64,000 nt of DNA from Microbacterium lacus. Lineage in GTDB: Bacteria > Actinomycetota > Actinomycetes > Actinomycetales > Microbacteriaceae. The translations under genes were made by a program, and so were the position numbers. The notes under the pieces were generated by a model. That model did not search any database. It worked only from the letters and a program-made list of their open reading frames with translations, and was not told the origin of the DNA. Of this stretch, positions 427 to 59,158 are shown in pieces. The stretch's first letter is position 1. The number at the start of each line of letters is the position of its first letter. Location of the stretch: assembly GCF_039531105.1 (NCBI RefSeq), contig NZ_BAAAPK010000001.1, positions 62,001-126,000 of the forward strand, written 5' to 3'.

Positions 427-457
427 CCCCCCGCCCCGATCGATCCCCCTCCCCCGC

Positions 458-560
458 GAGATGGTGGGTTCTCCGCCGAGATGGTGGGTTTCCCCTCGAG
501 ATGGTGGGGCATTCTCGGCGCAGGACCCACCATCTCGGCAGAAGAGGCACCATCTCGGCG
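458..560. repeat. 20-bp-period inverted repeat array A
   Basis: Three forward units with the core GAGATGGTGGGTT start at 458, 478 and 498, exactly 20 bp apart. They are followed by two reverse-oriented units, CCCACCATCTCGGC, whose CATCTC cores lie at 531 and 551, again 20 bp apart. The halves face each other, so the transcript of either strand can fold into a long imperfect hairpin. It lies between the convergent ends of the 35-residue gene and pyrE. Similar arrays occur at 32036 and 34172. It is not CRISPR: there are no conserved repeats separated by unique spacers. Confidence 0.85.
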
Positions 561-30802: not shown

Positions 30803-31975
30803 TCAGCTTCCTGCGAGGGGGTCGGGTGCGGCATCACCCGGCGGAGGTGAAGCGAGGGTCTTCGCATCCTGCCGCGGGACGACGATCTCGCGGAGGATCA
30901 GCAGCAGCGATGCCATGACCGGCAGCGCGACGAGCACGCCGATCACCCCGGCGAGTGTGCCGCCCACCATCGCGCCGATCAGGACGAGGGCGGCGGGGAT
31001 CGCGACGGCGCGCGTCATGACGCGTGGCGTGATGACGTAGGACTCGATCTGGATGTAGATCAGGTAGGCGATGCCGAAGATGAGCGCCTGGGTGGGACTG
31101 GAGATCAGGGCGATGAGCGTGCCGAACACCCAGAAGATCACGGAGCCGAACAGCGGGATCAGGGTGAGCACGAACGCGATGAAGGCCATCAGTGCGGGGT
31201 ACGGCAAACCGATGAGCAGGTGCAGGACGAACACGACGCCGGCGTTGATCAGTGCGAGCGTCACCGAGCCGAGCAGCGAACTGCCCACCGACGCGGTGAC
31301 CCGCTCGGTCATGTCGCTCAGGCGGGGGCGGCTGTAGGCCGGAGCGAGGCTGTAGAGCGCCTGCTTCATTCCCGTGAGGGAGGCGAGGAAGTACAGCGTG
31401 AGCGCGACGATGATGAACCCCGCCGAGATCGCCGCGACGACGCCGACGCCCACGGCGAGCGCTCCCCCGCTGATCGCCGCGATCGTCTCGGGCTGCCGCA
31501 GGGCTGCGGCGACCTCGGCGGAGGCCACGGCGATCGCATCCTGCAGGTCGGGTGGCAGCGCCAGGAACCAGGCGGACTGCTGCGCCTGCATCAGCGCCTC
31601 GGGGAACGAGCGGACGAACTCGACGACCTGGGCGAGGATCGGCGGCAGCACGAACACGAAGAATGCCGCGATGAGGAGCGCGAACGCGACGAAGACGATC
31701 AGGATGCCGGTCCCCCGCTTCACGCCGCGCCGCTCCAGCACCCGCACGATCGGGTCGAGGCCGAGCGAGACGAACAGCGCGAGCACGATGTAGAACAGGA
31801 TCGTCGTGATGGAGGCGATCGCCGACCCGAGGATGAGCCCGCCGAGCACCCCGAGCGTGGCGATGAAGGCGACGACGAGCGGTCGGTCCACGAGGGCGCG
31901 GATCCCCCGCCGCTCGGGGACGGCGAGGGCGGCATCCGCGACGGGCACGGGCGGGCGGTCGGCAGGGTCGGACAT
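30803..31975 (-). CDS. AI-2E family permease
   Basis: The 390-residue membrane protein has about eight helices, with VALTLYFLASLTGMKQALYSLAPAYSRPRLSDM and GLPYPALMAFIAFVLTLIPLFGSVIFWV as the conserved AI-2E core (TLIPLFG is typical). Some members export autoinducer-2, others exchange Na+ and H+; the name does not prove a role. A TAGCCT hexamer (31982-31987) lies six bases before the ATG. It is downstream of a second AI-2E gene, with the 20-bp repeat array between them. Confidence 0.88.
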   Translation of the reverse strand: MSDPADRPPVPVADAALAVPERRGIRALVDRPLVVAFIATLGVLGGLILGSAIASITTILFYIVLALFVSLGLDPIVRVLERRGVKRGTGILIVFVAFALLIAAFFVFVLPPILAQVVEFVRSFPEALMQAQQSAWFLALPPDLQDAIAVASAEVAAALRQPETIAAISGGALAVGVGVVAAISAGFIIVALTLYFLASLTGMKQALYSLAPAYSRPRLSDMTERVTASVGSSLLGSVTLALINAGVVFVLHLLIGLPYPALMAFIAFVLTLIPLFGSVIFWVFGTLIALISSPTQALIFGIAYLIYIQIESYVITPRVMTRAVAIPAALVLIGAMVGGTLAGVIGVLVALPVMASLLLILREIVVPRQDAKTLASPPPGDAAPDPLAGS

Positions 31976-31981
31976 GGCGCC

Positions 31982-31987
31982 AGGCTA
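31982..31987 (-). promoter_or_regulatory. -10 hexamer of AI-2E permease gene
   Basis: TAGCCT on the minus strand is six bases before the ATG at 31975. The repeat array B begins about 50 bp upstream. Confidence 0.5.
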
Positions 31988-32035
31988 GGCGTGCGCCCCG
32001 CTCCGGTGCCTCATGCCGGAGGGGTGAACCCCGCC

Positions 32036-32245
32036 CGCCGAGATCGTGCTTCCTCCGCCGAGATGGTGGGTTCTCCGCCGAGATGGTGGGTTTTCCGCCG
32101 AGATTGTGCCCACAGTCTCGGAAAAGGAACCACCACCTCGGCAAAGGAACCACCACCTCGGCAGAAGAACCACCATCTCGGCAAAGGAACCACCACCTCG
32201 GCAGAGGAACCACCACCTCGGCAGAAGACCACCACCTCGGCGGGC
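32036..32245. repeat. 20-bp-period inverted repeat array B
   Basis: About ten 20-bp units run without spacers. The first three read CCGAGATGGTGGGTT or close variants. The fourth is a hairpin centre (CCGAGA..TGTG / CACA.TCTCGG, 32098-32121). The last six read in reverse as AACCACCACCTCGGC with variants. The two halves face each other. It lies in the 283-bp gap between two tandem AI-2E permease genes, upstream of the second gene's promoter. Units differ at a few fixed positions, so they seem to have spread by copying. Confidence 0.9.
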
Positions 32246-32258
32246 GGAAGAAACCGGG

Positions 32259-33329
32259 TCAGGAGGGCGGCGCATCCCCGGACAGCCATCGCAGCCACCG
32301 CGCGCCCGGGTCGCCCTCCAGCACGAGGGCGCGCACGAGCAGGGTGAGCGGGATCGAGAGGATCGCCCCGAGCGGCCCGATGACGAACGTCCAGAAGATC
32401 ACCGAGAAGAAACTCAGCGTCAGGCTGAGGCTCACCGCGTCGCTGACGAACTTCGGCTGGACGAGCACCTGCAGCGTCACGTTCACGACGCAGTAGATCG
32501 CGATCACGGCGAGCGCGAGCGGCCAGCCGCCCACCACGAGCGCCAGCAGGGCGGGCGGAATGAGGCCGATCACGAATCCGATGTTCGGGATGAAGTTCGT
32601 CACGAACGCGAGGATCGCCCAGACCGCCGGCGCCGGTACCCCGAGCGCCCAGAGCGCCAGTCCGTCGATGATCGCGACGACCGCACCGAAGCTCGCGTTG
32701 ACGACGTAATACCGTCGCACCCCGGTGTTGAACGCGCGGAACCGCTTCACGGTCGGCCGCGCCGCTGCGCCGAAGACCGTCTCGGCGCGGCTGTAGCGCG
32801 CACCGTCCGCGGCCATGAAGATCACGTATGCCAGCACGAAGAAGAGGGCCGTCAGGATGCCGAGCGCCGTTCCGCCGAGAGAGGCGATGAAGTTCACGAT
32901 CGTGGCCGGCTGCAGAGCGGATGCCGCGGCATCCGACGCCTGTTGATCCAGGCCCAGCGACCCCAACCACGTCACGACCGCCTGCGCGGTCGCCTGCAGT
33001 TCGTCGGCGTAGTCGGCCACGAGGCGCACGAACTGGGTCCCCGCGAAGAACAGCAGCACGCCGAGCACGCCGAGGATGAGGTACGCGACGACGATCACGC
33101 CCGTCGTCGCCACCCAGCTCGGCCATCCCCATCTCTCGAGCGGATGCCGAACGGGATGGCAGATGATCACGATGACCGCCGCGAGCACGAGCGGCCCGAC
33201 GAGCTCGCGGGCGAAGAACAGGCCGGCGAGCGCGATGACCGTCGCCGCCAGCCCGATCAGTACGCGGAGCGTCGGCGAGAGGACCGGCGGGGAGGGAACG
33301 GCGGGTGCCGGGCGCCCGAAGAGACTCAC
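32259..33329 (-). CDS. AI-2E family permease (second copy)
   Basis: The 356-residue protein has the same fold: FVTNFIPNIGFVIGLIPPALLALVVGGWPLALAVIAIY and NVTLQVLVQPKFVSDAVSLSLTLSFFSVIFWTFVIGPLGAILSIPLTLLVRALV. It differs enough from the next copy that recent duplication is unlikely. The GTG start overlaps the K+ channel stop (GTGA), so channel and permease are co-translated. Possible roles are ion or signal export. Confidence 0.88.
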   Translation of the reverse strand: MSLFGRPAPAVPSPPVLSPTLRVLIGLAATVIALAGLFFARELVGPLVLAAVIVIICHPVRHPLERWGWPSWVATTGVIVVAYLILGVLGVLLFFAGTQFVRLVADYADELQATAQAVVTWLGSLGLDQQASDAAASALQPATIVNFIASLGGTALGILTALFFVLAYVIFMAADGARYSRAETVFGAAARPTVKRFRAFNTGVRRYYVVNASFGAVVAIIDGLALWALGVPAPAVWAILAFVTNFIPNIGFVIGLIPPALLALVVGGWPLALAVIAIYCVVNVTLQVLVQPKFVSDAVSLSLTLSFFSVIFWTFVIGPLGAILSIPLTLLVRALVLEGDPGARWLRWLSGDAPPS

Positions 33330-34171: not shown

Positions 34172-34252
34172 GGGCCACCATCTCGGCGAAAGACCCACCA
34201 CCTCGGCGAAAGACCCACCACCTCGGCGGAGGACCCACCACCTCGGCGGAGG
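34172..34252. repeat. 20-bp-period repeat array C
   Basis: Four units in a single orientation have the cores CCACCATCTCGGCG then CCCACCACCTCGGCG. CCACCA starts at 34175, 34195, 34215 and 34235, exactly 20 bp apart. No forward-facing half is present, unlike arrays A and B. It lies between the end of the ThuA-like gene and the K+ channel promoter. Same family as 458-560 and 32036-32245. Confidence 0.88.
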
Positions 34253-34270: not shown

Positions 34271-34945
34271 TCAGCGGGCGGGGCGGGCGGCCCAGAGGAT
34301 GCCGCGCTCGATCACCGTGCGCACCGTCGGGTGCGCGAGCACATCGAGATCGTGGCCGGGCGTGCAGACGACGATGCGGCCGGCACCCCACTCCCGCGTC
34401 CAGATCGCCGGGACCGTCACCGCCCGCTGCCACGGCTCGCCCGCGCGCGCCGGATGCGTCGTCGTCGCGAGCACATCGTTGAGGTCGTCGGTCAGCACCC
34501 AGTACTGCTCGGTGCGCAGCGTGAAGTCCGCCAGCCCGCCGGTGATCGGATGCCGCCGTCCGAGCTCCGTGAAGGCGATCTCGTGCGACACCGCGTACTC
34601 ACCGTCCAGGCCGGGGTGCGCCGCGAACTGCCCGCCGACGAGCTGGAGATAGTCCGCCGATTCGCGGAACGAGTCGGCGATGCCGCCGTGCCAGCCGGTG
34701 AACCCGGTTCCGGACGCGACGGCGGTGCGGAGCCCCGCGACCTGTTCGCGCGTGATCGAGGACATCGTGACGCACTGCACGATCAGATCGGCATCCGCCA
34801 TCACAGCCGTGTCCGCGTAGACCTCCGTCGACTCCTCCACCCGTACGGCGAACCCGTCCTCCCGCAGGAACGGCACGAACATCTCGGTCGCCTCGGCAGG
34901 CTGATGGCCTTCCCATCCGCCGCGCACGACGAGCGCGCGCCGCAT
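34271..34945 (-). CDS. ThuA-like domain protein
   Basis: The 224-residue protein has the ThuA (trehalose-utilisation type) fold, a glutamine-amidotransferase-like domain: ALVVRGGWEGHQPAEATEMFVPFL at the start, LRTAVASGTGFTGWHGGIADSFRESADYLQLVGGQFAAHPG in the middle, and PAIWTREWGAGRIVVCTPGHDLDVL near the end. Members act in sugar metabolism but most are uncharacterised. The ATG shares one base with the hspR stop (TGATG), so it is read with the heat-shock operon, an odd partner that has no known link to chaperones. Confidence 0.85.
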   Translation of the reverse strand: MRRALVVRGGWEGHQPAEATEMFVPFLREDGFAVRVEESTEVYADTAVMADADLIVQCVTMSSITREQVAGLRTAVASGTGFTGWHGGIADSFRESADYLQLVGGQFAAHPGLDGEYAVSHEIAFTELGRRHPITGGLADFTLRTEQYWVLTDDLNDVLATTTHPARAGEPWQRAVTVPAIWTREWGAGRIVVCTPGHDLDVLAHPTVRTVIERGILWAARPAR

Positions 34946-37049: not shown

Positions 37050-38921
37050 CTACTTCTTCTCGTTCTCGTCCTCGTCGTCGACGACCTCGGCGTCGATCAC
37101 GTCCTCCTCGGGGTTGGGGACGTTGCCGGCACCGGGCTCGTTCGCGGCCGGGTCGGGCGTCTCGCCCGCGGCCTGCGACGACTGGTAGATCGCCTCGCCG
37201 AGCTGGGACTGGCTCTGGTTGAGCTTGTCGTACGCGGTCTTCACCGCGTCGTCGTCCTCGCCCGCGAGCGCGGCCTTCAGGGCGTCGACATCGGCCTGCA
37301 CCGAGTTCTTGACCTCTTCGGGCAGCTTGTCCTCGTTCTCCTTGATCAGCTTGTCGATCGAGTAGGAGAGCGTCTCGGCCTGGTTGCGGACCTCGGCGGA
37401 CTCGCGGCGCTTCTTGTCCTCGGCGGCGTGCTCCTCCGCCTCGCGGACCATGCGCTCGATGTCCTCCTTCGGCAGCGACGAGCCGCCGGTGATGGTCATC
37501 GACTGCTCCTTGCCGGTGCCCTTGTCCTTCGCGGAGACGTGCACGATGCCGTTCGCGTCGATGTCGAACGTGACCTCGACCTGCGGGATGCCGCGCGGAG
37601 CCGGCGCGATGCCGGTCAGCTCGAACGTGCCCAGCGGCTTGTTGTCGCGCGTGAAGTCGCGCTCGCCCTGGAAGACCTGGATCGCGACCGACGGCTGGTT
37701 GTCGTCGGCGGTGGTGAAGGTCTCGCTGCGCTTGGTCGGGATGGCCGTGTTGCGCTCGATGAGCTTGGTCATGATGCCGCCCTTGGTCTCGATGCCGAGG
37801 CTCAGGGGGGTGACGTCGATCAGCAGGACGTCCTTGCGCTCGCCCTTGAGGACACCGGCCTGGAGGGCTGCGCCCACCGCGACGACCTCATCCGGGTTGA
37901 CGCCCTTGTTCGCCTCCTTGCCGGCCTCCTTCTTCACCAGCTCGGCGACGGCGGGCATGCGGGTGGAACCACCCACGAGCACGACGTGGTCGATGTCGGC
38001 GACCTTGATGCCGGCCTCGCGGATCACGTCTTCGAACGGCTTCTTCGTGCGGTCCAGCAGGTCCTTCGTCAGGTCCTCGAACTTCGCGCGGGTCACGGTC
38101 TCGGACAGCGACACCGGGCCGCTGTCGGTCAGCGACAGGTACGGAAGGTTGACGCTGGTCGACATGGAGCTGGAGAGCTCCTTCTTCGCCTGCTCCGCGG
38201 CCTCCTTGAGGCGCTGCAGCGCGATCTTGTCGCCCGAGACGTCGACGCCCGTCGTGTCCTTGAACTGCTTGATGAAGTAGTCCACCAGACGCTGGTCCCA
38301 GTCGTCGCCACCGAGGCGGTTGTCACCGGCGGTGGAGCGCACCTGGATCGTCGAGAAGTCGTCGTCCTTGCCCACTTCGAGCAGCGACACGTCGAACGTT
38401 CCGCCACCGAGGTCGAAGACGAGGATGAGCTCGTCCTCCTTGCCCTTGTCCAGGCCGTACGCGAGGGCCGCGGCGGTGGGCTCGTTGATGATGCGGAGCA
38501 CGTTCAGGCCCGCGATCTCGCCGGCCTCCTTCGTGGCCTGACGCTCGGCGTCGTTGAAGTACGCGGGGACCGTGATGACGGCATCCGTCACCGAGTCACC
38601 GAGGTACTCCTCGGCGTCGCGCTTGAGCTTGCCGAGGATGCGGGCCGAGATCTCCTGCGGCGTCCACTTCTTGCCGTCGACGTCGAAGGACCACGTGGTG
38701 CCCATGTGGCGCTTGACGGACGAGATCGTGCGATCGACGTTCGTGACGGCCTGGCGCTTGGCGGTCTCGCCGACGAGCACTTCGCCGTCCTTCGTGAAGG
38801 CGACCACCGACGGCGTCGTGCGGAAGCCCTCGGCGTTCGCGATCACCTTGGGCTCGCCGCCCTCGAGGACGCTGACGACGGAGTTCGTGGTTCCGAGGTC
38901 GATTCCAACAGCACGGGGCAT
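37050..38921 (-). CDS. dnaK: Molecular chaperone DnaK (Hsp70)
   Basis: The 623-residue protein has an ATPase domain with the three Hsp70 signatures: [30 protein letters not shown], and [16 protein letters not shown]. The substrate-binding domain begins near residue 360 ([17 protein letters not shown]), and the tail ends [17 protein letters not shown]. The ATG at 38921 has an AAGGAGAG site; an upstream in-frame ATG would start 30 residues earlier across the HAIR operator. It is the first gene of the operon and HspR's partner. Confidence 0.98.
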
Positions 38922-48916: not shown

Positions 48917-49600
48917 ATGAACACCGATGACAACGACTATGAAAACGACTCCTCCGGCGAAGGCGCCTCGACCGGGCGGCGACCGCTCGGCTTCTGGCTG
49001 CGCACCGTCGACGCCCTGATCACCCACGAGTTCTCCGCCGCATTCGACGGCGCCGGCATCGACCGGCGCGACTGGATGCTGCTGAATGCGCTCTCGGGCG
49101 AGGTCGAGCTTCCGGCGTTCGCCGAGCGGTTCGTCCGCCGCGGAAAGCGCTTGCGCCGCCTGGAAGAGCGCGGCTGGGCTGTGGAGAACGGCGACGGCAC
49201 CTGGGCGCTCACCGATGAGGGGCGCGCCGCCCGAGACGAGCTCAGCGAGGTGGTGGACGGTATCCGTTCCCGCGTCGCCGGCGCGGTCTCACCCGAGGAG
49301 TACGCCACCACGATGGCCTCGCTCGAAGCGATCGCCCGCGAGCTGGGCTGGGAAGAAGGCCGGCGCATGCCGCGCGGAGGCTTCGGCCGACGCGGCGGGT
49401 TCGGACCCGGCTTCGGCCCGCGGGGCGGATCCGGACACGGCGGTGGCTTCGGACCCGGTTTCGCGCCCGATCCCCACCACTGTGCGCACGCGCACGCCGG
49501 CCACGGCGCCCCCGGCCACCGCCGCCCCCACCACCACGGGGAGCGCGCCTACGAGCGCGGCTTCGACGCCGGTTTCGCCCGCGGTCGCACCGCCGGCTGA
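48917..49600 (+). CDS. MarR-like protein with His/Gly-rich C-terminus
   Basis: The 227-residue protein has a winged-helix-like core near residues 30-110: DALITHEFSAAFDGAGIDRRDWMLLNALSGEVELPAFAERFVRRGKRLRRLEERGWAV, TWALTDEGRAARDELSEVVDGI. It has a C-terminal tail of about 75 residues that is very rich in Gly, His and Phe (GFGPGFGPRGGSG; DPHHCAHAHAGHGAPGHRRPHHH). The tail is likely disordered and metal-binding. The start at 48917 follows an AAAAGG ribosome site. It is divergent from the His-rich MarR gene. Confidence 0.85.
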   Translation: MNTDDNDYENDSSGEGASTGRRPLGFWLRTVDALITHEFSAAFDGAGIDRRDWMLLNALSGEVELPAFAERFVRRGKRLRRLEERGWAVENGDGTWALTDEGRAARDELSEVVDGIRSRVAGAVSPEEYATTMASLEAIARELGWEEGRRMPRGGFGRRGGFGPGFGPRGGSGHGGGFGPGFAPDPHHCAHAHAGHGAPGHRRPHHHGERAYERGFDAGFARGRTAG

Positions 49601-59084: not shown

Positions 59085-59158
59085 GGGGATGTAGTTCAAT
59101 GGCAGAACTTCAGCTTCCCAAGCTGATAGCGCGGGTTCGATTCCCGTCATCCCCTCCA
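59085..59158 (+). tRNA. tRNA-Gly (anticodon CCC)
   Basis: The acceptor arms GGGGATG (59085-59091) and CATCCCC (59148-59154) pair perfectly. The D-arm is GTTC/GAAC, the anticodon arm is TCAGC-TTCCCAA-GCTGA with anticodon CCC, and the T-arm is GCGGG-TTCGATT-CCCGT. The discriminator T is followed by an encoded CCA (59156-59158). It is followed at once by an integrase gene, as expected of an integration site. Its 3' half is the likely attachment core. Confidence 0.97.
59131..59158 (+). other. Putative attL core in the tRNA 3' end
   Basis: Tyrosine integrases often recombine in the 3' half of tRNAs, which stays intact because the element brings a copy. The T-arm and acceptor end lie here, with the integrase gene 112 bp downstream. 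The right-hand copy (attR) should lie beyond the window. The exact crossover is not visible. Confidence 0.45.

Follow-up and report, generated by a model that had tools for sequence, protein, structure and literature searches.

Between two transporter genes of one family, a 64,000-nucleotide stretch of Microbacterium DNA (the window, meaning the whole stretch that was analysed) contains an array of short repeats that run in opposite directions from a palindromic centre. This arrangement raises the question of what such an array is: a feature of these two genes, a very long hairpin, or one member of a larger family.

The array between two AI-2E transporter genes

About ten 20-nt units occupy positions 32035-32241 of the window: four reversed ones and six to seven forward ones, which meet at a palindromic centre (32099-32120). 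The features of the array, its neighbours and the two related arrays in the window are as follows.

32035..32108, minus strand: left arm, four reversed 20-nt units with four reversed cores in phase (TRF 32035-32109, 3.8 copies)
32099..32120, no strand: apex, CGAGATTGTG-CC-CACAGTCTCG, an inverted pair of cores with a 2-nt gap, read from the sequence
32111..32241, plus strand: right arm, six to seven forward 20-nt units of core CACCAYCTCG plus spacer (TRF 32117-32241, 6.3 copies)
32259..33329, minus strand: AI-2E family transporter gene (Pfam PF01594, E 4.3e-45), stop codon 19 nt from the array
30803..31975, minus strand: second AI-2E family transporter gene (Pfam PF01594, E 1.2e-45), start 63 nt beyond the array
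452..560, no strand: second array of the 20-nt family, 3 reversed and 2-3 forward units, between convergent genes (TRF)
34175..34248, plus strand: third array of the 20-nt family, with 4 forward units in a single arm (TRF)

These features bear out a preliminary description of this DNA, in which about ten 20-bp units were seen in two opposite blocks, with a self-complementary centre at 32098-32121 and an AI-2E transporter gene on either side. In the right arm, six units are in strict phase and the final unit is one base short. A repeat search finds inverted arms at 32037-32108 and 32151-32222, which are 72 nt long and 81% complementary. A TANNNT hexamer, TAGCCT, is located 6 nt upstream of the ATG of the AI-2E gene at 30803..31975 and, judged by its letters, would be compatible with a leaderless promoter. 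The third array is placed 25 nt past the stop codon of a ThuA-like gene on the minus strand (34271-34945).

An Rfam scan of the window at the gathering score reports only a tRNA at 59085-59155 and nothing at the array. A plasmid or phage origin of the array was considered and rejected, with no match in either collection at distant sensitivity. Other tandem repeats in the window, at 49379-49441 and 37719-37794, have periods of 30 and 33 nt, and their sequence is unrelated to that of the 20-nt unit.

Number, plan and placement of the arrays in the genome

The preliminary description had noted the array between the two AI-2E genes. The repeat is not peculiar to this place: the genome of this Microbacterium has at least 37 such arrays of 20-nt units, three of which are inside the window. 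A two-unit pattern allowing up to 2 mismatches gives 70 + 62 matches in the 3.54-Mb genome compared to 0 + 0 for a backward control. The 34 arrays analysed here come from fetched stretches and the window, and the extra three are at C1:26154, C1:1134551 and C1:2420312. Short detections inside genes, six in this genome (termed G000) and three in another, G121, lacked the unit on inspection and are left out of the context counts; after removal of the six, all 34 analysed arrays are intergenic.

The full plan, which consists of reversed units, one clear apex and forward units, is present in 30 of the 34 arrays. The apex is formed by a 10-nt core, a gap that is usually 2 nt, and the inverted core. 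Among the 30 clear cases, the gap measures 2 nt in 26 and 1 nt in 4; these counts leave out the best-fit apexes of unclear arrays, in which ties lean to a 2-nt gap. Four arrays have no clear apex: the window array at 34176 and L110:1994 are one-armed, and the apex is more mismatched in L096 and L101.

Each unit combines the 10-nt core CACCAYCTCG with a less conserved 10-nt spacer, with the consensus GCGGAAAACC or GCGGGAAACC. Array detection required most of CAC and CTCG, which leaves the middle three core positions as the fair test of conservation. These positions carry 1.7, 1.4 and 1.0 bits, compared to 0.4-1.1 bits at spacer positions (244 units, this genome). Isolated copies of the core are few: in an 800-kb sample, 11 of 12 clusters are multi-unit arrays, and the one two-core cluster outside arrays is chance-like. 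The two 400-kb halves of this sample hold 53 and 14 exact core matches, array units included.

The arrays are concentrated at the 3′ ends of genes. With contexts taken from a simple purpose-written gene caller, 33 of the 34 arrays lie behind a stop codon and one lies between divergent genes (18 tandem, 15 convergent, 1 divergent). The divergent share is 36% among intergenic regions of at least 50 nt in the 800-kb sample (738 called genes), which gives P = 5e-6 for at most one divergent case in 34, or 2e-3 when all intergenic regions are counted. For tandem contexts, the median distance is 28.5 nt from the stop codon to the array and 98 nt from the array to the next start codon. The contexts in G121 agree with placement in the 3′ flank (8 tandem and 3 convergent, n=11). 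Six contexts in two further genomes, G294 and G255, which are outside the 34, are contrary to this rule (3 divergent, 2 tandem, 1 convergent); at one G294 locus, L123, the detection picked up a simple run adjacent to the array.

Variation between strains and species

Between strains, arrays gain and lose whole units at compared sites that stay occupied, which shows local expansion. Sites occupied here also have arrays in the metagenome assembly Microbacterium sp. BWSM_6 and in G193, a genome catalogued under the same species. Among 17 same-site pairs (16 from BWSM_6 and 1 from G193), 4 are equal within 1 nt and 13 differ in length, and array lengths in the metagenome assembly could be off. Eight of the 13 differences are multiples of 20 within 1 nt, with a range of -100 to +120 nt; the remaining five (+35, +36, +54, -113 and +169) result partly from differences at the outer edges. 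The flanks are mostly 96-99.9% identical, the lowest being 89%. At 32035-32241 itself, the 4 + 6-7 units found here compare with about 6 + 5 in the other assembly. Copy number among strains, which the preliminary description had put forward as a check, is thus variable, and its suggestion of recent expansion by unit copying is supported by the 13 of 17 same-site arrays that differ in length within one species.

The 17 pairs belong to 19 matched sites; L097, matched by one flank only, and L110:6268, split over two contigs, are omitted. The 15 BWSM_6 loci and one G193 locus contain 20 array clusters, every one of which is matched by an array here; two of the clusters are halves of one site. These loci were picked for holding arrays, and the absence of private arrays covers them rather than the whole genome. 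An exact pattern with a nearly fixed spacer had no match in the named genomes, and a looser pattern gave 15 stretches, all from BWSM_6, in a collection that may omit the window's own genome.

Across the genus, 7 of 366 Microbacterium genomes are carriers, with many matches or repeated 20-nt units (G000, G193, G121, G294, G255, G003 and G253), and the others have one or two chance-like matches, as in controls. With a stricter three-unit pattern, only this genome is found among 398 genomes of the family from 85 genera, a sample without the other carriers. The plan is present with partly different cores in four other Microbacterium species. A fifth, G253, may carry it as the weakest case, with three matches at two places among the matches listed and the core CACCAACTCG.

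The core is CACCTTCTCG in G003 and mostly CACATGCTCG in G294, and the single array in G255 has the cores CACATGCTCG and CACAAGCTCG (CACAWGCTCG). Most units in G121 have CACCATCTCG or CACCGTCTCG. The contrast between core and spacer is weaker in G121, where the middle core positions carry 2.0, 0.7 and 1.2 bits compared to 0.5-1.5 in the spacer (60 units); the corresponding values in G294 are 1.2, 0.9 and 1.2 compared to 0.2-1.3 (31 units). The apex gap is 2 nt in all 9 clear G121 cases, and 0, 1 and 0 nt in the three clear cases from G294 and G255. In the G294 loci L121-L124, the arms bear the unlike cores CACATGCTCG and GACATGGTCG, which differ only by C/G exchanges. Ten G294 matches among the matches listed fall within 70 kb of one contig.

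Homology of the flanks indicates that some sites are common to species. Three of five G003 arrays (L156, L168 and L127, the last with only about 11 nt of array on its contig), which have a different core, occupy sites where this genome also has an array, and so do 4 of 11 G121 arrays; these fractions are not rates, as the compared stretches are enriched for arrays. Two G121 arrays, of 6 that can be judged, match sites without an array here, and L164 (G003) and L120 (G121) have weak, perhaps paralogous matches to such sites. The other arrays are unmatched in the stretches compared. At one G121 site compared for an empty site, the flank beyond the gene is not homologous. Agreement of array sites between species within about 100 nt is improbable by chance.

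Three of the five G003 arrays (L161, L164 and L127) run off a contig end, and L168 runs into an N gap. Because G003 contigs end inside arrays, short-read assemblies may undercount them, and short-read surveys may miss them.

In a DnaK tree of 30 genomes, in which the forks are mostly weak, G003, G255 and G253 are nearer this genome and G121 and G294 are elsewhere. The carriers do not form one clade: the carrier label requires 4 changes, a number as low in 4 of 500 shuffles, helped by the identical G000/G193 pair. Near dnaK, a TRF scan for arrays with diverged cores in other species covered 20 genomes, including 4 carriers, in 20 stretches of 12-20 kb; G121 alone showed a 20-nt array with this plan. 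The same scan also listed other repeats of 16-24 nt. A 192-nt stretch that is 93-100% identical between species flanks arrays in G121 and G294 (L115, L123 and L203), and may be a piece of an rRNA operon.

Folding, recognition and relation to known repeats

The very long hairpin proposed in the preliminary description can form. On the strand of the upstream gene, the RNA of the window array folds at -151.4 kcal/mol compared to -102.1 +/- 5.4 for 200 dinucleotide shuffles (z = -9.15), none of which is as good, and the array folds strongly as DNA also. It is not, however, the feature that is conserved. With three units per arm in 25 arrays of this genome, native arms pair at -68.2 kcal/mol compared to -75.4 for arms mixed between arrays, and 99.9% of 5000 permuted pairings equal or exceed the native one in stability (99.6% with two units, 27 arrays). 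Native arms pair worse because CC tends to precede the core in one arm and GG in the other: among 39 arrays of this genome and G121, there are 15 GG/CC, 8 CC/GG, 13 CC/CC, 1 GG/GG and 2 other (Fisher P = 0.03). The frequency of C/G differences is 0.130 between native arms and 0.103 between permuted arms in this genome (P = 0.00035), with little excess in G121 (0.072 compared to 0.069).

These pairing tests weigh against the hairpin as the selected form. As arms pair worse within an array than between arrays, it is not a perfect long hairpin that is being preserved. SbcCD-type nucleases attack perfect long palindromes. Either such palindromes get removed, or the arrays stem from a founder with two unlike arms.

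The reading that we prefer, at roughly even odds of being right, is that the arrays are a lineage-specific family of 3′-flank repeats with a putative function, which undergo local expansion while sequence-specific recognition probably keeps their core uniform. The arms would lengthen and shorten by replication slippage or unequal recombination. Recognition is suggested because the core is uniform in a genome and changed between species; it would be read by a cell component, most likely a putative DNA- or RNA-binding protein, and a change of this reading partner would shift the core together genome-wide. If transcribed, an array would form a segmented, imperfect stem at the mRNA 3′ end, a possible obstacle to exonucleases or to read-through on either of the two strands. 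If the core is indeed read by a partner, this would be a natural example, in a Gram-positive bacterium, of a short word that changes in concert across a genome. A more elaborate picture, put forward tentatively, is that of a bipolar chromosomal satellite in which copies of a species-specific 10-bp word are laid out in both directions from a palindromic site of nucleation at the 3′ ends of genes; a change in the specificity of the putative partner would drag dozens of arrays to the new word, and the sites would persist across species.

Several other explanations account for part of these observations. A role as 3′-end RNA elements is attributed elsewhere to REP/BIME elements and paired DUS, and here a long segmented stem might end or protect the mRNAs of both neighbours. 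The short distance to the stop codon in tandem cases, the 15 of 34 convergent contexts and the strong fold of the window array speak for this possibility, which nevertheless appears somewhat less than even. Native arms pair worse than chimeric arms, C/G differences between arms are in excess in this genome, and 21 tandem arrays show no folding advantage of the sense over the antisense strand (p = 0.32). An intrinsic terminator has a GC-rich stem and a U-tract behind the stop codon; the window array has the position, but no U-tract follows its stem on reading the sequence, and a terminator scan of 31900-32400 gives two weak sites, both inside the array. Arms need not pair if the array is instead a chromosomal binding array, on which a putative protein would nucleate at the inverted pair of the apex and spread over cores about two helical turns apart. 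The better conserved core, the single apex with its outward polarity and regular gap in this genome and G121, and the different G003 core at shared sites are consistent with such a protein. So is the distribution around dnaA (C1:345573), which places the origin, GC skew having given no origin mark: of two equal 400-kb samples, the one from the origin side holds 10 arrays and the one from the far side holds 1. This enrichment is suggestive, as the comparison was planned after the listing had been seen. With copy number not conserved and the apex gap different in G294 and G255, we regard a binding array as rather unlikely.

Similarly doubtful is a neutral or selfish satellite that originates from short palindromes, grows by slippage and survives only where it is harmless, behind genes and not in promoters. 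Copy number that varies freely between strains, the patchy distribution among Microbacterium and family genomes, and the avoidance of divergent regions in this genome all fit such DNA, but a core better conserved than its spacer does not, and sites common to species despite a shifted core are unexpected if the DNA drifts freely. Mobilisation of a REP/BIME family by a RAYT transposase is very improbable. The arrays are palindromic, intergenic, multi-copy and contain inverted pairs, as would be expected; however, the RAYT-type transposase domain (Y1_Tnp, PF01797) is present in 0 of 11 Microbacterium genomes (7 carriers and 4 others), with 5 of 14 control genomes positive, which disfavours a RAYT/REP origin, and none of the 20 array clusters in the sister assemblies is private.

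Compared with known systems, the arrays belong with dispersed intergenic palindromic repeats, as a new, lineage-specific form that lacks a REP transposase in the 11 genomes searched. No description of them was found in openly licensed PMC papers, and the papers among the matches listed for a 12-mer and its complement as text looked unrelated in the portions available. REP/BIME elements, in the available parts of the sources, are short intergenic palindromic repeats with many copies, inverted pairs and, in some genomes, tandem reiteration (PMC2817692, PMC3116915, PMC3733652). The arrays share the intergenic location, palindromy, multiple copies and inverted pairs, but have one apex each rather than repeated alternation, and their unit is not itself a hairpin. 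Most REPs, though not all, bear a GTAG or CGTC tag according to the available part of one source (PMC3733652), whereas the unit consensus here, GCGGAAAACCCACCATCTCG, has neither tag and by eye is not self-complementary.

DUS are 10-12 nt long. In Neisseriaceae, an excerpt describes a DUS word that is uniform per genome, with dialects between species and inverted pairs associated with terminators (PMC3630211). The word in the arrays is likewise short, uniform within a genome and different between species. However, it occurs in arrays of 20-nt period, and the 800 kb sampled shows a single two-core cluster outside them instead of the single copies, spread genome-wide and many in genes, that characterise DUS. 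PIT/BoxC and TMECO intrastrand-triplex repeats are also dispersed and intergenic, some in inverted pairs, and the source mentions a bias towards the origin side in E. coli MG1655 which it did not see in other strains or bacteria (PMC4666352); the sequence plan of the arrays is different. The tandem units and whole-unit length changes between strains resemble those of a VNTR or minisatellite, and the arrays are usable as ready strain markers. They differ from a VNTR in having two opposite arms, one apex, a genome-wide 3′-flank family, and unequal conservation of core and spacer.

The backward control pattern (GCTCNNNCAC x3, 20-nt spacing) gives 2 + 6 matches in G739 and one in G612 (genus g90), with 0 in nearly all others; these matches may reflect a further repeat of 20-nt period, in a different genus.
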